Shown piece after piece: positions 1 to 11,571 of a stretch of 11,571 nucleotides of DNA. Source of the stretch: Micrococcales bacterium (GTDB lineage Bacteria > Actinomycetota > Actinomycetes > Actinomycetales > Microbacteriaceae); the NCBI GenBank assembly GCA_947448975.1, contig CANFPR010000014.1:1-11571 (forward strand), written 5' to 3'. The notes under the pieces are model-generated. The model had not been told where the DNA came from, searched no databases, and saw only the letters and a list, made by a program, of their open reading frames with translations. A program made the translations under genes and the position numbers. How positions within the stretch are numbered: the stretch's first letter is position 1; every line of letters starts with the position of its first letter.

Positions 1-1818
1 CACCGCCTTCAACTTCGCCACGCAAATCTCTTCAAGGATGTTCTTGAGCCGCTTCTTCGCAAAGAGGGCATTCGCCTCGAATCGTGGAAAGACCTCAACG
101 ATGCCGAGAAGGCCGAATTGCAGGCCTACTTTCAGGCTCAGATCTTTCCTGTTCTAACCCCGCTCGCGGTTGACCCGGCACACCCTTTTCCTTACATTTC
201 GGGCCTTTCACTCAACATGGCCGTGATGCTTCGCAACCCAGATGGCAAAGATCAGTTCGCCAGACTCAAGGTGCCACCGCTGTTGCCGCGTTTCGTGCGC
301 ATCCAGGGCAGTGCAACCTCCACTTCGCCTCGCTACATTCCGCTCGAAGAAGTAATCGGCCAGTTTCTAAACCAGCTGTTTCCGGGCATGGAAGTTTTGC
401 AACACCACACCTTTAGAGTCACTCGTAACGAAGACCTCGAAGTAGACGAGGATGAGTCGGAGAACTTGCTCGAATCGCTCGAGAAAGAGCTGCTTCGCCG
501 CAGGTTCGGCCCGCCGGTTCGCCTCGAAGTTGCAGTAGACATCAACCCTCAGGTGCTCGAACTCTTGGTTCGTGAACTCGACGTTGAAGACAGCGATGTC
601 TACCACCTTCCGGCCCCGCTAGACCTAACCGGTTTGTTCGAAGTTTCGGGCCTGAAGCGCGCCGAACTGCACTTTCCTCCTCACCAGGTGGTGACCAACC
701 GATACCTAGCCCATGCCGACGACGAAAAACTCGACATGTTCAAAGTGCTTCGCGAGCGCGAAGTTTTGGTGCACCACCCGTACGAGCGTTTTAGCACCTC
801 AACCCAGGCATTCCTTGAGCAGGCAGCGGCAGACCCGCACGTTCTGGCCATAAAACAGACGCTCTACCGCACCAGCGGTGACTCCCCCATTGTCGATGCA
901 CTGATTGCGGCAGCCGAAGCCGGCAAGCAGGTTCTTGCTCTGGTAGAAATCAAGGCGCGCTTCGACGAGCAAAACAACATCACCTGGGCTCGCAAGCTAG
1001 AGCAAGCGGGTGTGCACGTGGTTTACGGCATCGTTGGGCTCAAGACTCACTGCAAGCTTTCGCTGGTCATTCGCCAAGAAGGCACCAAACTGCGTCGCTA
1101 CTGCCACATCGGCACCGGAAACTACAACCCAAAGACCGCGCGCTTCTACGAAGACTATGGTCTGCTAACTTCGCGTGAGTCGGTGGGCGAAGACCTCACC
1201 AAGCTGTTCAACCAACTCAGCGGTTACGCCCCCGATGCCTCTTTCAAGAGTCTGCTGGTTTCGCCAAACGGCGTGCGCGACGGGCTGATTGCGCGCATCG
1301 ACACTGAAATCGAAAACCACATTGCCGGTAAACCGTCGGGCATCAAGATCAAGGTGAACTCACTAGTTGACGAAAAGATCATCGATGCCCTTTACCGCGC
1401 CAGCGTCGAAGGTGTACCGATTGACATCTTTGTTCGCGGTATGTGCTCCCTGAAGCCGGGCGTACCTGGCTTGAGTGAGAGCATCCGTGTGCGCTCGGTA
1501 CTCGGGCGCTATCTTGAGCACTCCCGCGCATTTGCCTTTGTCAACGCAGGCGACCCCCGCTATTACATTGGCTCGGCCGACATGATGCACCGAAACCTCG
1601 ACCGCCGCGTCGAAGCCCTGGTGAACCTGGTTCAACCAGATCACATGCAAGAGATCGAGTCGCTGTTTGAGCTAGCGATGTCAGATAGCTCGGCGTCGTG
1701 GCACCTCGACTCCAACGGAACCTGGACTCGCCACAAGTTTGATGCAGAGGGTAAGCCGCTTACCGAGGTGCAAGACGAAATCATGAGACGAGTGGCTAGC
1801 AAGCGGAGCCGTAACTAA
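1..1818 (+). CDS. ppk1: Polyphosphate kinase 1 (5' end missing)
   Basis: PPK1 reversibly transfers the ATP gamma-phosphate to long-chain inorganic polyphosphate. The reading frame is open from base 1, so the gene enters from outside the window. 605 residues are present; family members are about 690-740, so roughly 100-130 N-terminal residues are missing. Visible family blocks include [45 protein letters not shown] and [13 protein letters not shown]. The two histidines matching E. coli His435 (phosphorylated) and His592 are in KTHCK (residue 350 from base 1) and YLEHSR (residue 507), so the enzyme looks active. A TTG at 118 is internal and is not the start. The stop codon shares one base with the start of the next gene (TAATG), so translation is coupled to the MutT1-like hydrolase, the same neighbour as in mycobacteria. 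Assignment is firm. Confidence 0.97.
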
Positions 1819-2762
1819 TGACAGTATTTGCCGCCGGCGCAATCTGCTGGCGTGAAGTTGATGGCGCTTTGCGGGTGGCGATCATTCACCGCAATCGCTA
1901 CAACGACTGGTCTTGGCCCAAGGGCAAGGTTGACCCAGGAGAGACGCTGCCCGAGGCGGCGGTTCGCGAAATCCGTGAAGAAACCGGCCTGAAGATTCGC
2001 CTTGGTGCACCGCTTCGTGTGCAGAGTTACAAACTCGCTAACGGTGCCGACAAAGAGGTTCACTACTGGGCTGCAAAAATAACCGATTCGGCTTTGGCAA
2101 ACAGCACCTTCAAACCAGACGAAGAAGTTGAAGAAGTGGTTTGGGTTTCGGTGGCCGAAGCCCGCGAAAAGCTAACGTACCCGCACGACAAAGAGTGCCT
2201 CGACGACCTGATCAAGCTTCACGAAGACGGTTTACTGAATACCAAGCCCTTCATCGTGCTGCGTCACGCCAAAGCAACCCCTCGTGCGGGTTGGGTTAAG
2301 CCAGACGGCAAGCGACCGCTGCTGCCCGAAGGTTTTGAGCAGGCTCAGGCGCTGGTCCCGCTGCTAAATGCGTACGGCGCGAAACGAGTGGTCACGAGCC
2401 CCTGGGTAAGGTGTCTAGCAACGGTTACCCCATACGCCAAAGCCAAAAAGCTCACCATTGTTGAGCGCGGCCAACTCACCGAATTCGGCAACGCCGATGG
2501 CCCAAAGCGCACCGCGCGAGTTATCGAACGCCTGCTCGAAGAGGGCAAGGCAGCTGTTATTTGCAGCCACCGCCCAGCGCTACCAACCATTCTCGATACC
2601 ATCAGCTCTATTGCCACCCCAAGGCAAGAGATTCTGATTCACGAGGCTCGAGCGCTCGACCCTGGCTCAATGCTGGTTCTGCACCTCACCTATGGTGAAC
2701 AAGGACCACGAAGAATTGCTGGAATAGAAGTGCACTCCCCGATCGTTAAGGCAAACAAATGA
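1818..2762 (+). CDS. mutT1: MutT1-like Nudix hydrolase fused to a histidine phosphatase domain
   Basis: A two-domain, 314-residue protein. Residues 1 to about 140 are a Nudix domain with a complete Nudix box: G36, E42, then R50-E51-I52 and E54-E55, ending G57-L58. This fits the pattern G-x5-E-x7-RE-x2-EE-x-G. Residues about 145-314 are a histidine phosphatase (SixA/phosphoglycerate-mutase-like) domain with the LRHAK motif (catalytic H150), R198 in SPWVRC and the second histidine H251 in CSHRP. This architecture is that of mycobacterial MutT1, which hydrolyses 8-oxo-(d)GTP and diadenosine polyphosphates; the same substrates are inferred here. Its position next to ppk1 supports the assignment. 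The ATG overlaps the ppk1 stop by one base and its own TGA overlaps the next ATG (ATGA), so it lies inside a translationally coupled string. Confidence 0.92.
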   Translation: MTVFAAGAICWREVDGALRVAIIHRNRYNDWSWPKGKVDPGETLPEAAVREIREETGLKIRLGAPLRVQSYKLANGADKEVHYWAAKITDSALANSTFKPDEEVEEVVWVSVAEAREKLTYPHDKECLDDLIKLHEDGLLNTKPFIVLRHAKATPRAGWVKPDGKRPLLPEGFEQAQALVPLLNAYGAKRVVTSPWVRCLATVTPYAKAKKLTIVERGQLTEFGNADGPKRTARVIERLLEEGKAAVICSHRPALPTILDTISSIATPRQEILIHEARALDPGSMLVLHLTYGEQGPRRIAGIEVHSPIVKANK

Positions 2763-3520
2763 ACGACTTTCAAACCTGGATTGACCAACGCAACGCTCAG
2801 TGGAGCAACCCAACGGGATTTCTCGCAGTAACCAGCATGAACTGGCTCGATGAGACCCCGCAAACCTTCTCGGATGTTTCGGGCTCATGGTGGGCAAACG
2901 ACCACGAAGTGCACGCCATCGGATTCGAAGGCGAAGGTGAGCGCGTTTGGCAGTTGCCTTTTGGCAGCGAAATTAGCGAACCAATGACCGGCGGCGTTCT
3001 AGAAATTGCTAGCCGCGGCGGTCGCGTGATTCTGCGCCCGAGAAACCAGCAAGCTCCGGCACTGCAGCGATTCAGCGGTGTAAGCACCTTCGAATACAAC
3101 CCAGACTTGGCCGTTGAAGCAGAACTAATCGAAGACGAAAAGACCGTTGGGGTTTCTTCGGCTGCGGGAGAACTGGGCAACAAGTATGTTTCACCGGGTC
3201 GGTTGCGCTTCAACCTTCATGGAGAACAAATCGACCTAGTCGGCTTTGAACGACCAAACCCAGATCAACTTTGGGTAATCTTTCGAGACGGCACCTCGGG
3301 TAAAACCAGCTACGGAACAGGCCGCTCGGTTACGGCAATAAAGCAGCCGAACGGGCGCTGGGCCATCGACTTCAACAAGTCGGCCAACTTTCCTTGCTCA
3401 TACACCGACTTCGCCACCTGCCCTTTGGCACCGCGCGAAAACTACCTGAGCGTCGAAATCGCCGGCGGCGAGAAAACCCCTAACTTCAGAATCACCAGCG
3501 ACGGCCTACAAGACCAATGA
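2759..3520 (+). CDS. DUF1684 family protein
   Basis: A 253-residue protein of the DUF1684 family, whose function is unknown. Family hallmarks visible: an N-terminal W-x2-QRN block followed by NPTGFLAV and MNWL (residues 7-30); an RFSGVSTFEYN block (104-114); the FRDGTSGKTSYGTGR block (175-189); and the C-terminal DFNKSANFPCSYTDF block running into CPLAPREN (204-228), which carries two cysteines, C213 and C221. There is no signal peptide or membrane segment, so it is probably cytosolic. Start and stop both use ATGA overlaps with neighbours, so it is almost certainly co-translated with mutT1 and the SDR/DUF2867 gene. Family membership is clear; no reaction can be assigned. Confidence 0.88.
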   Translation: MNDFQTWIDQRNAQWSNPTGFLAVTSMNWLDETPQTFSDVSGSWWANDHEVHAIGFEGEGERVWQLPFGSEISEPMTGGVLEIASRGGRVILRPRNQQAPALQRFSGVSTFEYNPDLAVEAELIEDEKTVGVSSAAGELGNKYVSPGRLRFNLHGEQIDLVGFERPNPDQLWVIFRDGTSGKTSYGTGRSVTAIKQPNGRWAIDFNKSANFPCSYTDFATCPLAPRENYLSVEIAGGEKTPNFRITSDGLQDQ

Positions 3521-5031
3521 CCGACGATTCGGTAGCTGCGGGTCTGCCCCTTCTCGAAGGTAAAGACGGCAAACCTGCGCTGTGCCTAGTCACAGGGGCT
3601 ACCGGATACATCGGCGGGCGACTCATTCGCGAACTCTTGAGTCATGGCTACCGGGTGCGCATACTCGCACGCCACCCCGAACGGCTGCACGATCATCCGT
3701 GGATTGACCAAGTTGAGATTGCCGCTGGCGATGCGCACGATGCCGAAACTCTAAAGCGTGCGTTGGCTGGCGTAGACGTGGCTTATTACCTGCTGCATGC
3801 GCTGATGAGCAAAGACAACTTTGAGGCCGAAGAGCGCGACCTTGCCAAAGGTTTTGCGTCGGCGGCGAAGGCGGCCTCGGTTGCCCGCATCGTTTACCTA
3901 GGCGGCATCATCTCTGGTGCCGAAGAGCTATCGCCACACCTTCGTGCTCGCACCGAAACTGGCGAGATTCTCAGAGCATCGGGAGTGCCAACGGTTGAAC
4001 TGCGCGCCGGCGTGGTTATTGGCTCAGGAAGCGCTTCATTTGAGATGCTGCGATACCTAACCGAGCGACTGCCAGTGATGACGGTTCCGAAATGGGTGAA
4101 TAACCGTATTCAGCCAATCGCCATTCGGGATGTTTTGCGCTACCTCGTCGGTGCTGCGGCAATCGACCCGAAAATCAACGCCGACTTCGACATCGGCGGC
4201 CCAGAGGTTTTCACCTATCGCGAAATGATGATGCAATATGCTGCGGCGGCCGGCCTTCGTAAGCGAATCATCATTCCAATTCCGGTGCTTACACCAAGAC
4301 TTTCATCGGGCTGGGTTGGGCTGGTAACGCCCGTGCCCTACACCCTCGCCAAGCGCCTGGTGGCAAGCCTCAAGAACGAGGTGGTCGCACGCGACGACAG
4401 CATTCGCAAACTGATTCCCGATCCGGTTGGTGGGCTAACGTCTTTTCAGCGTGCGGTGCAGCTTGCGCTAAAGCGAATCAAAAGCGCAAACGTAGAAACA
4501 CGATGGACCAACGCCTCGGTTCCGGGTACCCCATCTGACCCGCTGCCAACCGACCCCGACTGGGCCGGCGGAACGCTTTACCAAGACGTTCGCGTGGTTG
4601 ATTCGACCGACCCAATCGACGTGGTTTGGGCGCGTGTTGAATCGATCGGCGGCGACAACGGATACTCCACGGCAACGTGGGCTTGGCGCTTACGTGGCTT
4701 GGCCGATCGACTCGTCGGAGGCGTAGGGCTTCGACGCGGGCGCCGCGACCCAAACACTCTCATCGAAGGCGAAGCACTCGACTTTTGGCGAGTCGAAGCA
4801 ATCGAACGGCCTCACCTACTGCGCTTGCGCGCCGAAATGAAAATGCCCGGATTAGCTTGGCTAGAGTTTCGGCTCGAAGCAACCAAAACCGGTACGCGTC
4901 TAACGCAACGGGCCATCTACGCACCGCGCGGTTTGCTGGGTCACCTCTACTGGGCAAGCGTTTGGCCAATGCATGGAATCGTGTTTCCTTCGATGGCAAG
5001 GCATGCCGCGCTCGGAACCAAGCGCAAATAG
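3517..5031 (+). CDS. SDR-family NAD(P)-binding protein with C-terminal DUF2867 domain
   Basis: A 504-residue two-domain protein. Residues about 22-320 form an atypical (extended-like) short-chain dehydrogenase Rossmann fold with the nucleotide-binding motif TGATGYIGG (glycines 27, 30 and 33). The LARHPERL segment (50-57) follows the second strand and the YYLLHAL segment (90-96) is typical of this subgroup. The classical YxxxK catalytic pair is not evident, so it may bind the cofactor without classical dehydrogenase chemistry. Residues about 350-504 match DUF2867: the DVVWARV, TWAWRLRGLADRL and LDFWRVEAIE blocks, and a Trp/Pro-rich end. No signal peptide is seen. The ATG overlaps the DUF1684 stop (ATGA). 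The fusion is common in actinobacteria, usually annotated only as an NAD-dependent epimerase-like protein, and the substrate is unknown. Family call is strong; function is open. Confidence 0.87.
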   Translation: MTDDSVAAGLPLLEGKDGKPALCLVTGATGYIGGRLIRELLSHGYRVRILARHPERLHDHPWIDQVEIAAGDAHDAETLKRALAGVDVAYYLLHALMSKDNFEAEERDLAKGFASAAKAASVARIVYLGGIISGAEELSPHLRARTETGEILRASGVPTVELRAGVVIGSGSASFEMLRYLTERLPVMTVPKWVNNRIQPIAIRDVLRYLVGAAAIDPKINADFDIGGPEVFTYREMMMQYAAAAGLRKRIIIPIPVLTPRLSSGWVGLVTPVPYTLAKRLVASLKNEVVARDDSIRKLIPDPVGGLTSFQRAVQLALKRIKSANVETRWTNASVPGTPSDPLPTDPDWAGGTLYQDVRVVDSTDPIDVVWARVESIGGDNGYSTATWAWRLRGLADRLVGGVGLRRGRRDPNTLIEGEALDFWRVEAIERPHLLRLRAEMKMPGLAWLEFRLEATKTGTRLTQRAIYAPRGLLGHLYWASVWPMHGIVFPSMARHAALGTKRK

Positions 5032-5040
5032 ACTGCACTG

Positions 5041-5934
5041 GTGAAGAAATCATCCCTGGCGGTAATCGCGCTTGTAACCGTCGCGGCATCGTGGGGTTTT
5101 GCGTTCGTCTGGATGAAAGACACCATCGATCGCCAACCATATTTTGACTTTCTGGCTACAAGATTCACGCTCGCTGCCGTGATCATGTTTTTGGTTCGGC
5201 CGCAGCTGGTTCGATCGCTCAAACCCAAGTTCTTGCTTCGCGGCATCGCACTGGGCGTAGCCCTTGGGCTGGGTTATGTGACGCAGACCATCGGTCTCGA
5301 ACTTTCCACGGCAGCCATCACGGGCTTTTTTACCGGTCTCTACATTGTGCTTACCCCGGTTTTCGCTTGGCTACTTCTAAAGCAGAAGGTTTCGCTCAAG
5401 GTTGCACTCAGTGTGGGCCTAGCCACGGTCGGTCTTGGCTTGATTACTCTCGATGGCCTCGGATTCGATTTGGGAACTCTAAGCCTCTTGGCCTGCGCAG
5501 TGCTGTTTGCCCTGCACATTGTTGGCCTCGGCCGCTGGAGCCCCGGGAGCGACACCTACGCGCTCACCGTGGTGCAACTTGCCACCGTCGCCGTTGTTTG
5601 CTGGATCGGGGCATTGCAAGACGGCTACCAAGCGCCGCCTGACGCCGACGTTTGGAACTCAATATTTTTCACAGCGGTTTTTGCCACTGCGATTGCGTTC
5701 TTTGTGCAGACCTGGGCGCAATCCATCATGGATGCCTCACGAGTGGCCATCATTCTCACCAGCGAGGTTATCTTCGCGGCAATCTTTGCGGTCGCCACCG
5801 GCCAAGAGGTGCTTGCGCTTAAGACCATCCTTGGCGGCACACTGATGGTCGTGGCCATGTTCATAGTTGAATGGCCCAGCAAAAAAGATCAGCCCAGCGA
5901 CGTTACCGCGGGGCTAGACCCGCTCGTGCACTAA
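5041..5934 (+). CDS. EamA/DMT-superfamily permease
   Basis: A 297-residue, very hydrophobic protein with about ten predicted membrane helices arranged as two EamA repeats (approximately residues 5-135 and 145-280). Typical features are the N-terminal WGFAFVWMK segment, ATRFTLAA at the second helix, QTIGLELSTAA in the first repeat, FFTGLYIVLTPVFAWLLLKQK closing it, and the second-repeat ILTSEVIFAAIFA segment. These are drug/metabolite transporters; the substrate cannot be read from sequence. The start is a GTG nine bases after the SDR gene's stop, with no clear Shine-Dalgarno, so it probably relies on re-initiation from upstream. The C-terminal tail (from about 283) is polar and cytosolic-looking. 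Glycerol kinase follows after 19 bases. Import of a polyol-type substrate for that kinase is possible but unproven. Confidence 0.9.
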   Translation: MKKSSLAVIALVTVAASWGFAFVWMKDTIDRQPYFDFLATRFTLAAVIMFLVRPQLVRSLKPKFLLRGIALGVALGLGYVTQTIGLELSTAAITGFFTGLYIVLTPVFAWLLLKQKVSLKVALSVGLATVGLGLITLDGLGFDLGTLSLLACAVLFALHIVGLGRWSPGSDTYALTVVQLATVAVVCWIGALQDGYQAPPDADVWNSIFFTAVFATAIAFFVQTWAQSIMDASRVAIILTSEVIFAAIFAVATGQEVLALKTILGGTLMVVAMFIVEWPSKKDQPSDVTAGLDPLVH

Positions 5935-5943
5935 CCTTTGGGC

Positions 5944-5949
5944 AAGGAG
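5944..5949 (+). promoter_or_regulatory. Shine-Dalgarno for glycerol kinase
   Basis: AAGGAG lies four bases before the ATG at 5954. It is the clearest ribosome binding site in the plus-strand run. Unlike its upstream neighbours, glycerol kinase therefore need not depend on translational coupling, and the site fixes the start codon. Confidence 0.75.
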
Positions 5950-5953
5950 TGAC

Positions 5954-7444
5954 ATGAGCGTTTTAGCAATCGATGCGGGCACCACCGGCATCACCACGCT
6001 CGTGGTTAGCGCTTCTGGGGCAACACTTGCGCGGGGTTACCACGAATTCGAGCAACATTTTCCGGCCCCGGGATGGGTTGAACACGACCCCGAGCAAATC
6101 TGGCAGGCCACCCTGGCATCGGTGCGCCAAGCACTAAACGAATTGGCTCAGTCGGCCAACCAAGGCGATACGCCCTCGTGCATCGGCGTTACCAACCAGC
6201 GCGAGACTTTGGTGCTTTGGGACAAACAGACACTTCGAGCACCAACCAACGCAATCGTCTGGCAAGACCGCCGCACCAGCGCTCTGCTGAGCGACAAAAA
6301 GTTCGTTGATGCCGCGGTCGAGGTTAGGCAACGCACCGGTTTGCCGCTCGACCCATATTTCACTTCTTCGAAACTGCTCTGGGTTAAGCGCAACCTGCCC
6401 GATGTGTGGCGCGGAGTGGCTGCCGGGGTCACAGCCGTGGGCACAGTCGAGTCTTACCTGGTTGCCCGCATGACCGGTGCGCGCACACACATCACTGACG
6501 CTACCAATGCCTCGCGCACGCAACTCTACAACTTGCACACTGGCGACTGGGATGACTGGCTGCTCGACCTTTTCGAAGTGCCTCGCTCGGCCTTGCCTGT
6601 AATCACTGCGAACTACGGCAATCTAGCCACTACGTTTGCTCCAGCTTTTCTCGATCTCGAGTTGCCGATAACCGGCCTAGCCGGCGATCAGCAGGCTGCG
6701 CTTTTCGGCCAGGGCGCTACGAGCGCAGGCACAGCTAAGTGCACCTACGGCACTGGTGCGTTTTTGCTCATGCACACAGGTAGTACGGTGATCGACAACA
6801 ACGACGGCATGCTCGCCACAGTTGCCCTGCAACACAAAAATGGTGAACGCGAATTCGCACTCGAGGGGTCGGTGTTTGTCGCCGGAGCGGCAGTGCAGTG
6901 GTTGCGCGATGGACTTCAGATCATTGATACCTCGGCAGAGGTAGAGGCGCTCTCATCGCAGGTACCTGATTCATCTGGTGTAAGTTTTGTGCCAGCCTTC
7001 ACAGGTCTTGGCGCGCCGTTCTGGAACCCCGACGCTCGCGGAGAAATAGTTGGAATCACCCGCGGAACCACCAAAGCGCACATTGCCCGCGCCACTCTCG
7101 AGGCCATCGCCTTCCAAGTGAAAGCGGTGTTTGACGCCATGACCAAAGCCGAGAACTCAGTGGTGCTCACGAAATTGCGCGTCGACGGCGGAGCCTCGGT
7201 GAACAACCTGCTTATGCAGATTCAGGCTGATCAACTGGGTGTCGAAATCGAACGCCCCGAGAACCTCGAAACCACCGCTCTGGGCGTTGCCTACCTAGCG
7301 GGGCTGGGTGCTGGCATCTGGAATTCTGTGGCCGATGTGAGCAATCTAAACAAAGTGCGCACCCGATTTGCCCCTGAGCCTGCCGACGCAGCCGGTTTTG
7401 AGGCTTGGATGCAGGTCGTCAAGCAACTCGCAGGGCGTGCCTAA
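5954..7444 (+). CDS. glpK: Glycerol kinase (FGGY family)
   Basis: A 496-residue FGGY kinase that should phosphorylate glycerol to sn-glycerol 3-phosphate using ATP. The positions that contact glycerol in E. coli GlpK are all present: R83 and E84 (NQRET), W103 (AIVWQDRR), Y135 (LDPYF), D245 (AGDQQAALFGQG) and F270 (YGTGAF). The PGWVEHDPEQIW block (39-50) and the FGGY-type segment FTGLGAPFWNP (around 350-360) are also typical. Two departures stand out. The N-terminal phosphate-binding loop reads DAGTTG rather than the common DQGTTS. The glycine-rich fructose-1,6-bisphosphate loop of E. coli (about residues 230-236) is replaced by ATTFAPAFLDLE, and no HPr-phosphorylatable histidine is visible there. 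Allosteric control is therefore likely different. No glpF or glpD is adjacent; an EamA permease precedes it. A related polyol kinase is the main alternative. Confidence 0.9.
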   Translation: MSVLAIDAGTTGITTLVVSASGATLARGYHEFEQHFPAPGWVEHDPEQIWQATLASVRQALNELAQSANQGDTPSCIGVTNQRETLVLWDKQTLRAPTNAIVWQDRRTSALLSDKKFVDAAVEVRQRTGLPLDPYFTSSKLLWVKRNLPDVWRGVAAGVTAVGTVESYLVARMTGARTHITDATNASRTQLYNLHTGDWDDWLLDLFEVPRSALPVITANYGNLATTFAPAFLDLELPITGLAGDQQAALFGQGATSAGTAKCTYGTGAFLLMHTGSTVIDNNDGMLATVALQHKNGEREFALEGSVFVAGAAVQWLRDGLQIIDTSAEVEALSSQVPDSSGVSFVPAFTGLGAPFWNPDARGEIVGITRGTTKAHIARATLEAIAFQVKAVFDAMTKAENSVVLTKLRVDGGASVNNLLMQIQADQLGVEIERPENLETTALGVAYLAGLGAGIWNSVADVSNLNKVRTRFAPEPADAAGFEAWMQVVKQLAGRA

Positions 7445-7482: not shown

Positions 7483-7716
7483 ATGCCTATCAAACGAGCG
7501 CTTCCTCGAGAGCTGGATGTTCCGCATCCCGACCGATTGAACGCCGATAACCCCAACTTTGAAGAAATCATGATGCGCCACAACGTATCGATGGTGCTCG
7601 AAAACCCTGGCTACACCGACCCAGAAACTGGGTTGTTTGTCTTCAATGCCAAAACCTTGGCAGATGCCGGCAAGTGTTGCGCAAACCTCTGCCGGCACTG
7701 CCCGTTCAAACGCTAG
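7483..7716 (+). CDS. DUF5522 family small Cys-motif protein
   Basis: A 77-residue soluble protein resembling DUF5522, a short family of unknown function. The diagnostic C-terminus is GKCCANLCRHCPF, a CC-x3-C-x2-C cluster (C65, C66, C70, C73), preceded by the TDPETGLFVFNAKTLADAG segment. Four closely spaced cysteines suggest metal or Fe-S binding, but this is inference. The ATG at 7483 has no convincing Shine-Dalgarno, and the start lies 38 bases after glpK. It could be the tail of the same transcript or have its own start. It converges on the small lysine-rich gene, with only six bases between the two stop codons. Confidence 0.8.
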   Translation: MPIKRALPRELDVPHPDRLNADNPNFEEIMMRHNVSMVLENPGYTDPETGLFVFNAKTLADAGKCCANLCRHCPFKR

Positions 7717-7902: not shown

Positions 7903-7979
7903 GGGCCTCTAGCTCAGTTGGTTAGAGCAACGGACTTTTAATCCGTGGGTCGAGGGTTCGATCCCCTCGGGGCCTACCA
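7903..7979 (+). tRNA. tRNA-Lys (anticodon UUU), CCA encoded
   Basis: A complete cloverleaf can be drawn. The acceptor stem pairs GGGCCTC with GGGGCCT, with two G-U pairs. The D-arm contains AGCTCAGTTGG. The anticodon stem ACGGA/TCCGT encloses the loop CTTTTAA with anticodon TTT at 7937-7939. The variable loop is short, and the T-arm pairs GAGGG with CCCTC around TTCGATC. The discriminator base is A and the 3' CCA is encoded at 7977-7979. The anticodon reads lysine AAA/AAG codons. It has its own promoter-like sequence upstream and a strong terminator immediately downstream, so it is a single-gene unit. Confidence 0.96.
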
Positions 7980-8439: not shown

Positions 8440-9687
8440 TTAGGGCTTGACTTGCGATTCGGTGCGCGGCCTGAGATCTACTGGTTGCCCAAAAAGCCAT
8501 CCCTGTGCAAACTGAGCACCGACGGCCTTCGCTAGATCTAGATCTGCCTGAGTTTCAACTTTTTCAACGATCACTTCGGCGCCAACTAGTTCAGCGAATT
8601 TCATGCCGAGTTCTAGTAGCCCGCGGCTTAGGTCGGGCCGTTCAACCTGAAGTAGCGAGCCGTCAAGCTTGACGAAGTCGGTTGGCAGGCTACTGATGAC
8701 GCTGAGGCTCGTTCGACCGGTTCCGAAATCATCGATTGCAATCTTGGCGCCGCGCTTGCGCAGCCCAAGCAGACCCATGCTTAGGTCGATCTGATTCTGA
8801 ATGACCGATGTCTCGGTCAACTCAAAAATTAGCGAGAAATGCGCTTCCTTGATTTTCGGCAGCAAAAGGTCAACTGCTGAGAAAAATTCGTGGTCGTTGC
8901 CCAAGGTCTGCGCGCTGATGTTGATTGAGATTGCCTGGCCGCCGCGCGCTATGAGCTCAGGGTAAGCAGCCTCCACGGCCTTGAGTGTCCAGAAGTCGAT
9001 TATTTGAACGAGGTTCAAGTCTTCTGCTAGTTGGATAAAGAGTTCTGGGCTGATGGAACCAAGTGTCGGGCTATCCCAACGGCAGAGTGCTTCGTAGCCA
9101 TAAATCTCGCCAGTAGCCACGTAGTTGATTGGTTGAAAAACCCAGTACATTCCCTCTGGTGGCGTCGAGCCCAAGCCAAGTCGGGCTAATTCTTGACGCA
9201 CTTGTTCTGACGTTGCTACGTGGTTGTCGGCAAGTTCTGCCTGCCCTGTTCGAGTTGATTTCATTACAGCCAAGTTGAGTCTGGCCACCCAGTCTTGAGC
9301 GCCCAGCGCCGCAGAGCGGTCGGTTACCACTGCCCCGATGCTAACTTCAAGCAAAAATCTGTAGCGTTTTGTGGCGTTAAATTCCGAAACGATGGATTTA
9401 ACTTGTCGCACGAACCCAAGCGGGTTTGAAGCATCGGTAGCAACCAGCGCAAACAAGCCTTTTGAAATGCGCTCGATCTGCGCAACAGTGCCAAGGCGTT
9501 CTAACGAGGTTGAGAGTTCATCGACCGCCTTGTCGGCTAAGGCGGCACCAAATTCTTCTTCAAGCACTGGGCTATTGGTAACCAATAGTTTCACCAACAG
9601 AAGGTCTTGCTTGTTGTGAAGCTCGTTGATGCGCGCCATAAACCTAAGTTGCGAGCTAGAAACTACGACTGATGCATCTGGGGTCAT
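8440..9687 (-). CDS. Cyclic di-GMP phosphodiesterase, degenerate GGDEF-EAL
   Basis: A 415-residue soluble protein. Residues about 180-405 are an EAL domain, which linearises c-di-GMP to pGpG. Key positions appear intact: EAL at 199-201 (YGYEALCRW), N256 (SINIS), E289 and E292 (FELTE), D319-D320 in IDDFGTG, K340 (FVKLDGS), E375 and E378 (VEKVET), and Q395-G396 (AQGWLFG). The usual AEGVE loop reads VEKVE, so a Gly is Lys but both glutamates remain. Residues about 25-150 look like a degenerate GGDEF domain: where GGDEF is expected the sequence is ISKGLFAL (75-82), so it cannot make c-di-GMP and may be regulatory. There is no membrane segment or signal peptide. An AGAGG site 6 bases before the ATG supports the start. 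The gene is divergent from the glycan synthase, with 57 bases between them. Confidence 0.92.
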   Translation of the reverse strand: MTPDASVVVSSSQLRFMARINELHNKQDLLLVKLLVTNSPVLEEEFGAALADKAVDELSTSLERLGTVAQIERISKGLFALVATDASNPLGFVRQVKSIVSEFNATKRYRFLLEVSIGAVVTDRSAALGAQDWVARLNLAVMKSTRTGQAELADNHVATSEQVRQELARLGLGSTPPEGMYWVFQPINYVATGEIYGYEALCRWDSPTLGSISPELFIQLAEDLNLVQIIDFWTLKAVEAAYPELIARGGQAISINISAQTLGNDHEFFSAVDLLLPKIKEAHFSLIFELTETSVIQNQIDLSMGLLGLRKRGAKIAIDDFGTGRTSLSVISSLPTDFVKLDGSLLQVERPDLSRGLLELGMKFAELVGAEVIVEKVETQADLDLAKAVGAQFAQGWLFGQPVDLRPRTESQVKP

Positions 9688-9737
9688 CTTCTACCTCTCG
9701 TCGGGCTCTGAGTCTATCCCCGCATAAGCTCCGCTTG

Positions 9738-9746
9738 TGCTTTAAT
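9738..9746 (+). promoter_or_regulatory. Candidate extended -10 promoter of the GT2 gene
   Basis: TGC followed directly by TTTAAT (9741-9746) looks like an extended -10 element; no -35 box is evident. It overlaps the ATG at 9745. If it is real, transcription would begin near 9753 and the first usable starts would be 9769 or 9802. Confidence 0.35.
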
Positions 9747-11250
9747 GGCAGGCAACGAGCCTTTACTGATGCCAGATGTGCACTTAGGTCGATTGGGGTA
9801 CATGGCCGCTTGGCGTAAACCTAGAAACGGCAAGTATCAAGGCTTGATCGGCCTGATGCTAGTCGCCACTGGCATTAGCGCGTTCATTTTGATTGCCTAC
9901 ACACTTCAAATAACTGGACTCACACTCACCGAACCGACTTCGAGGGCTCTGCTTCTGGGATTCCTGCCCATTTACTTCAGTTGGCAAGCTCCTCCCCTAA
10001 TTGCCGTGATAGCTGCAGTTTCTATTGGGATGGCCGTTGTGGTTGCCTTCGTTGGTCTTGAAATACGCGATGCAAACCTTGCGCGTCGGTCTCACGATGC
10101 TGGGCACAAAAAGCTCTCTCCGTGGGTGCTGATGAAATCCACCGAGGGCGTATTCCACGGAGAAGTCACAATCACCGCGCTAATTCCCGCTCACAACGAA
10201 GAAGACTTGATTGCTGCCACCATTCGATCTTTGATGGGGCAAGATCGAAAGCCAGAGCGCGTCATTGTGGTTGCCGATAACTGCACCGACCAAACCGTTG
10301 CTATAGCTCGGTCGCTTGGTATTGAGGTTTTCGAATCAGTAAACAACGCATCTAAGAAGGCTGGCGCACTCAATCAAGTTCTCGAGACTCTGCTGCCTCA
10401 ACTCGGTGAAAACGACACCGTGATGATCATGGATGCCGACACAGTGCTGCGCCAAGGATTCTTGAGCACAGCGGCGAAGCACTTTACCGACGATCGCGGT
10501 TTAAGCGCCATCGGCGGCCTGTTCTTCGGAGAAGACCGTCGCGGCTTGCTCGCTCAAATACAGAAAAACGAATACACCCGCTATTCAAGAGAAATCAGCC
10601 GCCGCAAGGGCAGAGTGTTCGTACTCACCGGCACCGCGTCGATCTTTAGGGCTAGGTCGCTGCGGACCATTGCCGAAGAACGCGGGCGGCTCTTGCCCGG
10701 CATCCCTGGTCAGGTTTATGACACCCACGCGCTAACCGAAGACAACGAGTTGACCATCGCGCTAAAGACGCTCGGCGCACTGATGATGTCACCGCCGGAA
10801 TGCATGGTTGAGACTGAACTCATGCCCAACCTGAAAGCTCTGTGGCGGCAACGTCTGCGATGGGAGCGCGGCGCGATGGAAAACATTGCCACCTACGGCG
10901 TCACTTCGACAACTGCCCGCTACTGGTCACAGCAGCTCGGGTTGGGCTACTCGGTTTTTGCCCTCTGGACGTATTTTCTGTTGATCGTGCTTCAGGTAGT
11001 GAGCTCCGATACTTGGGTTTGGTATCCGTTCTGGATCATCATGGCCATGATCTTTATTGCAGAAAAAGTTTGGACAGTGCGTAAAGCAAACTGGAAGGCC
11101 AAACTGTTAGCTGCGACGCTAGTGATCGAACTTCTTTACGACACTTTCTTGGGCATAATCTTCGTCAAAGGCGCTCTAGACATGGCGCTTGGCCGCAAGG
11201 CACATTGGGGCGACGACCACTCGAAAGATTTGAAGCAGGTTTCAGCATGA
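9745..11250 (+). CDS. Membrane-bound processive family 2 glycosyltransferase
   Basis: A 501-residue polysaccharide synthase-like protein (COG1215, cellulose/poly-GlcNAc/hyaluronan synthase type). Two N-terminal helices (about 34-56 and 84-105) precede the cytosolic GT-A domain. This begins at TALIPAHNEED (144-154), with VVADNCTD (175-182), the metal/nucleotide DAD motif (230-232), the catalytic-base TED (331-333) and the QRLRW motif of processive synthases (369-373). Helices near 400-420, 426-443 and 456-476 follow. There is no PilZ domain, so any c-di-GMP control must work through another protein. The sugar is unknown; the layout is closest to PgaC/IcaA-type enzymes. The stop overlaps the small membrane gene by ATGA. 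The start is uncertain: 9745 has no Shine-Dalgarno and overlaps a possible -10, while ATG 9802 (residue 20) follows a G-rich TTGGGG and still keeps both N-terminal helices. Confidence 0.9.
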   Translation: MAGNEPLLMPDVHLGRLGYMAAWRKPRNGKYQGLIGLMLVATGISAFILIAYTLQITGLTLTEPTSRALLLGFLPIYFSWQAPPLIAVIAAVSIGMAVVVAFVGLEIRDANLARRSHDAGHKKLSPWVLMKSTEGVFHGEVTITALIPAHNEEDLIAATIRSLMGQDRKPERVIVVADNCTDQTVAIARSLGIEVFESVNNASKKAGALNQVLETLLPQLGENDTVMIMDADTVLRQGFLSTAAKHFTDDRGLSAIGGLFFGEDRRGLLAQIQKNEYTRYSREISRRKGRVFVLTGTASIFRARSLRTIAEERGRLLPGIPGQVYDTHALTEDNELTIALKTLGALMMSPPECMVETELMPNLKALWRQRLRWERGAMENIATYGVTSTTARYWSQQLGLGYSVFALWTYFLLIVLQVVSSDTWVWYPFWIIMAMIFIAEKVWTVRKANWKAKLLAATLVIELLYDTFLGIIFVKGALDMALGRKAHWGDDHSKDLKQVSA

Positions 11251-11465
11251 TGCCGTTCAAGTTTCTGACCGGGCTACTGCTACCCGAAAGCTTCATGCAC
11301 ACCCAATTCTTTTTGATTCTGGCAACGTTGGTAGCCCTCAACACAGTTATTTACTCAGCGCTATCGCTGATTCACATCATTCCCAAATGGTTTAGAGCGA
11401 GTTGGCTCAGGGGTCGCCGGCAGCGTGCGGTGACTCGAAGCATCTACCCGGATGCCCCTAAATAG
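11247..11465 (+). CDS. Small single-pass membrane protein, candidate GT2 partner
   Basis: A 72-residue protein with a short N-terminal segment, one strong hydrophobic helix (about 19-45, QFFLILATLVALNTVIYSAL) and a basic C-terminal tail with WFRASWLRGRRQR and VTRSIYP (48-67). By the positive-inside rule the tail is cytosolic. The start is the ATG at 11247, which overlaps the GT2 stop (ATGA) and lies 7 bases after an AGG. The frame is open further back (ATG at 11205), but that would only overlap the synthase. The size, membrane topology and translational coupling recall PgaD/IcaD-like subunits of poly-GlcNAc synthases, but I see no clear homology and the role is inferred. The arginine cluster could bind a negatively charged ligand such as c-di-GMP, lipid or polymer. 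Confidence 0.75.
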   Translation: MMPFKFLTGLLLPESFMHTQFFLILATLVALNTVIYSALSLIHIIPKWFRASWLRGRRQRAVTRSIYPDAPK

Positions 11466-11571
11466 CGCTCTTCATGGTCGTGACCAAATAGCGATTTCTG
11501 CCTTCGTTCTTAGCCTGATACATGATTTTGTCGGCAACGCGAACAACTTCATCGGGATGTTGCGAACCATC
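11458..11571 (-). CDS. GGDEF diguanylate cyclase, C-terminal end only
   Basis: Only the last 37 residues lie inside the window; the gene continues past the right edge. They contain VADKIMYQAKNEGRNRYLV, the standard end of a GGDEF domain (compare the common pattern AD-x2-LY-x-AK-x2-GRN), followed by a short tail TTMKSAI. A GGDEF domain condenses two GTP to c-di-GMP. The GGDEF signature itself is outside the window, so activity and accompanying domains cannot be judged. Its stop codon overlaps the end of the convergent small membrane gene: the two coding regions share 8 bases (11458-11465). Confidence 0.8.
   Translation of the reverse strand, partial: DGSQHPDEVVRVADKIMYQAKNEGRNRYLVTTMKSAI

Follow-up and report, generated by a model that had tools for sequence, protein, structure and literature searches.

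Control of compact polysaccharide synthases of glycosyltransferase family 2 (GT2) by cyclic di-GMP (c-di-GMP) is, as a general idea, already known from PgaCD, BgsA, Listeria Pss, B. subtilis Yda, and L. acidophilus Gts; statements on published work here follow excerpts of the cited papers. In PgaC/PgaD, the poly-N-acetylglucosamine (PNAG) synthase of E. coli, c-di-GMP binds both partners (PMC8461298). In BgsA, the mixed-linkage glucan synthase of Sinorhizobium, the GT2's own non-PilZ tail binds c-di-GMP, and R599 and H615 are needed (PMC5567048). The Listeria pssA-E and Bacillus ydaJKLMN operons encode a membrane-bound degenerate GGDEF I-site receptor, and a degenerate GGDEF domain that keeps its I-site is the signature of receptors such as PssE and YdaK (PMC4125290, PMC7064775). 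In a survey of exopolysaccharide operons, Gram-positive matches to pga were, on closer inspection, staphylococcal ica loci (PMC7112194). Here we analyze an 11,571-bp stretch of DNA (the window; contig CANFPR010000014.1 of assembly GCA_947448975.1) from a freshwater Micrococcales bacterium of the Microbacteriaceae, in which a GT2 gene and an overlapping gene for a small membrane protein lie between an EAL gene and the end of a GGDEF gene. The locus probably encodes a c-di-GMP-gated, PgaC-like polysaccharide synthase whose mini-subunit may be the receptor. Its four genes are as follows.

8440..9687, minus strand: EAL c-di-GMP phosphodiesterase of 415 aa, GGDEF-like but degenerate in its N-terminal region (about residues 1-170); assigned from the Pfam EAL match and the catalytic positions.
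9802..11250 (frame open from 9745), plus strand: GT2 processive glycosyltransferase of 482 aa; assigned from Pfam GT2 families.
11247..11465, plus strand: 72-aa one-helix partner with the tail R-x-x-T-R-S-I-Y-P; assigned from 66 homologues, conservation, hydropathy, and overlap.
11458..11571, minus strand: 3' end of a diguanylate cyclase gene (PAS_4 plus GGDEF, 317 aa; complete gene on contig C4 from 18239); assigned from contig-end identity and Pfam.

An earlier reading of the letters alone (the sequence-only reading) had placed the EAL gene (-), the GT2 gene (+), the small gene (+), and the GGDEF end (-) at these positions, and all four are confirmed. The overlap that it noted between GT2 and the small membrane gene is likewise real: the start codon of the small gene overlaps the stop codon of GT2 (ATGA), and the cyclase gene in turn overlaps the 3' end of the small gene by 8 bp. 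The GT2 start is more likely at 9802 than at 9745, because the resulting 482 aa is the commonest length (34 of the 120 homologues listed). The window is a complete contig (C14) of a 1.03-Mb genome in 161 contigs that is 73% complete. Its right end shares exactly 129 identical bp with one end of contig C4: the last 129 bp of C4 match those that open the reverse complement of the window. In one relative (locus L017), the GT2 gene, the small gene, and a full cyclase gene share a contig whose end cuts the EAL gene; in another (L018), the EAL gene, GT2, the small gene, and a cut cyclase lie together. Since the same gene sets are joined in both, the C14-C4 join is no assembly accident.

The GT2 protein matches Pfam at 1.9e-20 and contains the motifs DNCTD, MDAD, TED, and QRLRW, together with four clear hydrophobic helices in hydropathy analysis. 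Residues D178, D182, D230, D232, E332, D333, Q369, R370, R372, and W373 are invariant in a 50-row alignment. With D, DxD, TED, and Q(Q/R)xRW signatures and flanking membrane helices, it is predicted to be a processive synthase. The best-scoring curated model is PgaC_IcaA (NCBIfam TIGR03937), with 84.2 bits against a cut-off of 422.3, and PgaC/IcaA membership was rejected for falling so far below it. Matches to solved structures are limited to weak GT2 and cellulose-synthase hits (BcsA in the PDB, 1.4e-5). As the sequence-only reading had held, Pfam finds no PilZ domain on the window GT2; none was found elsewhere in the genome (0/1) or in the relatives searched (0/7) either, and a BcsA-type PilZ synthase was rejected on this basis. 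The nearest GT2 on the tree is that of L017, a Rhodoluna limnophila metagenome-assembled genome, and on this basis we regard the organism as a member of the Microbacteriaceae close to Rhodoluna. No natural fusion of GT2 with a tailed partner was seen among the 120 GT2 homologues listed, as judged by length and one sequence.

The EAL protein looks intact as a phosphodiesterase. Pfam locates the EAL domain at residues 180-402 (1.1e-49), and sequence patterns identify a complete catalytic set (EAL, N, ETE, DDFG, K, VEKVE, and QGW positions), in agreement with the intact catalytic positions reported earlier. A GGDEF profile matches the N-terminal part of its close relatives. The earlier proposal depended on a cyclase that is not degenerate, and reading rightward onto C4 reveals a complete signature, with Pfam matches to PAS_4 (2.7e-8) and GGDEF (9.5e-46), a complete substrate motif (DIDYFKTVNDTYG), and an active-site motif that is AGDEF rather than GGDEF. 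AGDEF is active in V. cholerae VCA0965, in which G, M, and H at the first position worked too; SGDEF, found in the cyclases of L018 and L107, is not among the active variants named in the excerpt (PMC3974145). With its metal/substrate motif and usable A-site, the window cyclase looks able to act as a diguanylate cyclase. Hydropathy predicts no membrane helix in the EAL protein or the cyclase. The I-site RxxD is not present in the cyclase, which has PETS at the corresponding position, and the N-terminal part of the EAL protein has no RxxD, so that the window module lacks an I-site receptor of the PssE/YdaK type. These two genes are the only EAL and GGDEF matches in the genome, about a quarter of which is missing.

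The small protein has 66 homologues, none of which has a Pfam domain and which, where the source names them, are called hypothetical. We infer that this one-helix protein of about 72 aa is a subunit of the GT2, because its gene overlaps the GT2 gene and is conserved there. Hydropathy analysis predicts one hydrophobic helix followed by a basic tail. The tail is expected in the cytoplasm, since the basic residues come after the helix and would obey the positive-inside rule. We aligned 89 rows (the window protein appears twice; the incomplete L031 was left out) and numbered residues from the first methionine of the 71-aa form. Residues P12, V28, N31, T32, P45, R59, R63, I65, and P67 are invariant; position 62 is T in 87 rows and S in 2, position 64 is S in 85, G in 3, and I in 1, and the remaining basic positions of the tail vary. 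The pattern R-x-x-[T/S]-R-[S/G]-I-[Y/H/F]-P is present in 88/89 rows and in all five tailed loci found later (G440, G513, G180, G393, and G580). It includes RxxxR, one of the two PilZ motifs (PMC5567048); with the PilZ fold absent, this five-residue pattern alone is weak evidence. Searches of Pfam and NCBIfam at 0.001 produced no match of the small protein to PgaD/IcaD, and no PgaD/IcaD family appeared when 30 family members were compared with Pfam at E up to 1; membership was rejected for want of a curated-family match. No convincing solved relatives were found.

To what genes this pair is attached can be seen across relatives. In a family set of 150 genomes, GT2 was detected at E up to 1e-20 in 15, of which 12 are at least 51% identical. 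The small gene is seen in 11 of these 12; the G094 contig ends before it, and a second G094 contig, not joined to the one with GT2, terminates consistently in GGDEF followed by EAL. We scored 28 tailed loci from the family genomes, named loci, and further genomes, having examined 21 (L017-L036 and L052) of 80 named loci, the others being remote. L031 (incomplete) and L097/G094 (contig end) were left out of the adjacency count, and L026 and L027, which are fused, were counted apart. GGDEF or EAL genes lie near GT2 and the small gene in 17/28, and in each of these 17 the nearest such domain is no more than about 2 kb away. Reading of these loci assigns them to eight arrangements: EAL divergent upstream with GGDEF convergent (the window, L017, and L018); EAL then GGDEF, convergent (L019-L021); a convergent GGDEF-EAL protein (L106); EAL convergent with GGDEF co-directional (L024 and L105); EAL alone, convergent (L028 and L099); a GGDEF-EAL protein co-directional upstream (L025, L034, and L104) or divergent (L023 and L113); and EAL co-directional with GGDEF opposite, both upstream (L107). 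The fixed minimal four-gene layout of the sequence-only reading is not supported by this variety, and the co-occurrence of all four genes that it anticipated extends to close relatives and only part of the wider set. The conserved unit is the GT2 with its mini-subunit, to which c-di-GMP enzymes are attached in many ways.

Among 24 loci, for which the choice of open reading frames was rough and included some antisense frames, no third gene stood out as conserved and indicative of the polymer. Nine proteins were scanned; two are neighbours other than cyclases or hydrolases, of which that in L019 matches DUF3344 and a 937-aa frame in L022 has no match. In L020, the cyclase region lies between two EAL genes (1359-2633 and 4741-5997). 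One resembles the EAL of the window (460 bits) and the other that of L019 (242 bits), suggestive of one EAL having replaced another near the synthase.

The partner itself varies. In a sister lineage, the helix of the partner lacks the tail (checked in L026 and L027) and begins a protein of about 400 aa with more hydrophobic helices and a degenerate GGDEF domain. By reading of the alignment, 23 of 25 homologues of this fused form (P0068-P0092, two of them fragments without the helix) have the RxxD of the c-di-GMP-binding I-site, none has GG[DE]EF, and 24 lack the ND substrate pair; L026 itself is without RxxD. Source names, where given, describe them as GGDEF-like cyclases. Tail-less GT2 relatives that fall outside this clade (Streptomyces, Phytoactinopolyspora, and others) have an adjacent one-helix protein of 50-62 aa in 12/16 loci (L136 and L137, short contigs with no partner seen, were left out), and no separate mini-protein was seen in L033, L035, L109, and L116. 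These tail-less mini-proteins stop just past the helix and carry an LPxTG/LAxTG-like motif. None of the 16 GT2 loci without a detected tailed partner has a GGDEF or EAL neighbour in the stretch examined. In a GT2 tree of 45 rows made by a quick method, tailed and fused rows fall on one side of a branch (30 rows, SH-aLRT 100), and long branches are flagged among the tail-less rows.

Some features of the tail-less loci stand on their own. The mini-proteins beside GT2 in L029, L030, L032, L036, L108, and L117-L123 resemble isolated sortase sorting signals with almost no mature part, in which LAATG, LPETG, LPDTG, LAYTG, or a similar motif is followed by one helix and mostly then by basic residues. 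The tailed family has LLPES at the matching position. In L035 and L109, the GT2 C terminus seems to consist of a mini-protein-like helix (FRLIPLPMS and GRLVPVRTF, respectively); these are perhaps GT2/mini-protein fusions.

We propose that the GT2 would polymerize and extrude a sugar chain, perhaps PNAG-like, an activity and product suggested by its processive GT2 motifs, with the small one-helix protein acting as its presumed subunit. The adjoining cyclase and EAL hydrolase, whose genes are complete, adjacent, and the only ones detected, would set the c-di-GMP level, and c-di-GMP would act on the synthase itself without a PilZ domain. Where the sequence-only reading named no receptor, the tail of the small subunit is now proposed as a candidate: the receptor would most likely be this invariant basic tail, in the cytoplasm at the GT2 contact. 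This is the weakest step of the proposal; BgsA provides a precedent that we count in favour of a non-PilZ tail as c-di-GMP receptor. A broader and more tentative idea, which may well prove wrong, is that the pattern R-x-x-[T/S]-R-[S/G]-I-[Y/H/F]-P defines a new type of c-di-GMP receptor motif of minimal size and that the mini-subunit, in its tail-less, RxxxR-tailed, and I-site GGDEF-fused forms, is an exchangeable sensing module of an actinobacterial synthase family.

That unrelated genes are neighbours here by chance is very improbable. GGDEF is common in the family (88/150 genomes), and 11/28 tailed loci have no GGDEF or EAL nearby (L022, L052, L098/G047, L100/G129, L101/G078, L102/G080, L103/G063, L112/G440, L114/G180, L115/G393, and L135/G580, with flanks short on one side in L022 and L135), both of which chance would allow. 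However, a uniform-placement test on 14 genomes, the window's own left out, gave 6 adjacent cases against 0.58 expected (P = 4.4e-6), several of these genomes sharing a genus and hence not being independent, and in all three single-GGDEF tailed genomes of 99-100% completeness (G106, G139, and G095) the GGDEF gene adjoins the pair, as does their only EAL gene. Adjacency far above uniform placement upholds the earlier tie of cyclase and hydrolase to the synthase and, with the complete cyclase and the lack of PilZ, supports in part the view that they may gate it; the fixed order and layout fell away. Genome-wide counts discriminate less. GGDEF occurs in 12/12 family genomes whose GT2 reaches 51% identity, yet also in 76/138 others, and in 15/16 genomes with a seen tailed partner and 8/10 searched genomes of tail-less loci; its presence in the 76/138 and 8/10 is why we dropped it as a main argument. 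Among relatives without the GT2, G092 and G013 have both GGDEF and EAL, and G010 and G012 have neither. Overall, the link of the GT2 and mini-subunit pair to c-di-GMP is well supported.

Several points weigh against the proposed gating through the subunit: the 11 tailed loci without neighbours, the kinship among the placement-test genomes, and the incompleteness of the window's own genome. The Fisher P of 5e-5 for neighbours in 17/28 tailed against 0/16 tail-less loci overstates this contrast, because the tail changes once on the GT2 tree, which makes the contrast a single event. Basic residues after a helix can serve topology alone. Finally, G440 (L112, 96% complete) keeps the pair and the tail, and neither GGDEF at E up to 10 nor EAL at E up to 0.1 was found in it; c-di-GMP was lost with the synthase kept, or a gene was missed. 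The tail of G440, present without detected c-di-GMP genes, would suit a c-di-GMP-controlled synthase in which the tail merely anchors or orients the subunit, while c-di-GMP is received by the GT2 itself or by the neighbouring EAL protein, perhaps in its degenerate GGDEF part, acting on the synthase. This alternative is on the unlikely side and has parallels in the joint binding of c-di-GMP by PgaC and PgaD (PMC8461298) and in the degenerate EAL protein PdeB of L. acidophilus, a c-di-GMP binder with GtsA/GtsB as its proposed target (PMC6123363). The window EAL, in contrast, retains its catalytic positions, no EAL lies beside 11/28 tailed pairs, and a mere anchor leaves unexplained both the invariant single residues amid variable basic positions of the tail and the I-site fusion form. 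Quite unlikely is a polymer synthase not directly controlled by c-di-GMP, which would act instead on transcription or another envelope process, with a purely structural tail. Repeated adjacency in eight layouts, the single-GGDEF genomes, and the existence of proteins in which the partner helix is fused to a GGDEF domain carrying an I-site all argue against such indirect control, whereas G440 and the 11 loci without neighbours favour it, as does the scope of our receptor search, which covered PilZ and did not look for transcription factors or other receptors.

The remainder of the window encodes, from 1 to 7444 on the plus strand and as assigned by Pfam, a polyphosphate kinase, a NUDIX/histidine-phosphatase protein, a DUF1684 protein, an NAD-binding protein with DUF2867, an EamA transporter, and an FGGY sugar kinase. 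A 77-aa open reading frame with a cysteine-rich end (CCANLCRHCPFKR) follows at 7483-7716 (+) and has no NCBIfam match. Between it and a gene for an FKBP-type isomerase lies a tRNA gene at 7903-7976 (+), the only structured RNA that Rfam detects in the window.

The conserved pair points to an uncharacterized signal-controlled surface polymer in Gram-positive bacteria. If so, actinobacteria would own a self-contained c-di-GMP output, among them freshwater lineages whose small genomes hold a single cyclase and a single hydrolase, and a tail of about 25 residues would offer a very compact and testable explanation of how c-di-GMP can be sensed by GT2 synthases that lack PilZ, such as PgaCD. The pair was not found described in open-licence literature on Microbacteriaceae, Rhodoluna, and actinobacterial c-di-GMP or polysaccharide, as judged from titles and the starts of abstracts, with subscription papers and preprints outside the scope. 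The layout is less isolated than the sequence-only reading supposed when it called it unlike the better-known loci, as excerpts on L. acidophilus, Listeria, and Bacillus describe a cyclase, a hydrolase, a GT2, and a membrane partner grouped in compact sets.

Like PgaC/PgaD, the locus combines a GT2 and a small membrane protein without PilZ; it differs in that no deacetylase or outer-membrane genes were seen at the window locus and that the partner has one helix, where PgaD has two. BcsA cellulose synthase is a GT2 of the same broad kind and has an RxxxR string in its PilZ domain, whereas Pfam reveals neither a PilZ domain nor BcsB at the window locus. Listeria pssA-E and Bacillus ydaJKLMN are likewise Gram-positive GT2 synthase systems, and their receptor resembles the fused partner of the L027 type; the window module, in contrast, is without an I-site receptor and has a 72-aa one-helix protein as partner. 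Likened by descriptions, gtsA-gtsB-pdeB with dgcA-pdeA of L. acidophilus shares one cyclase, a hydrolase, a GT2, and a small membrane protein in which no domains are known (PMC6123363), but GtsA has two helices and a degenerate EAL protein is the proposed receptor, while the window EAL looks active. BgsA shares a GT2-linked, non-PilZ, cytoplasmic C-terminal tail: in BgsA it is 139 aa long and part of the GT2 itself, whereas here the putative receptor would consist of about 25 residues on a separate subunit.

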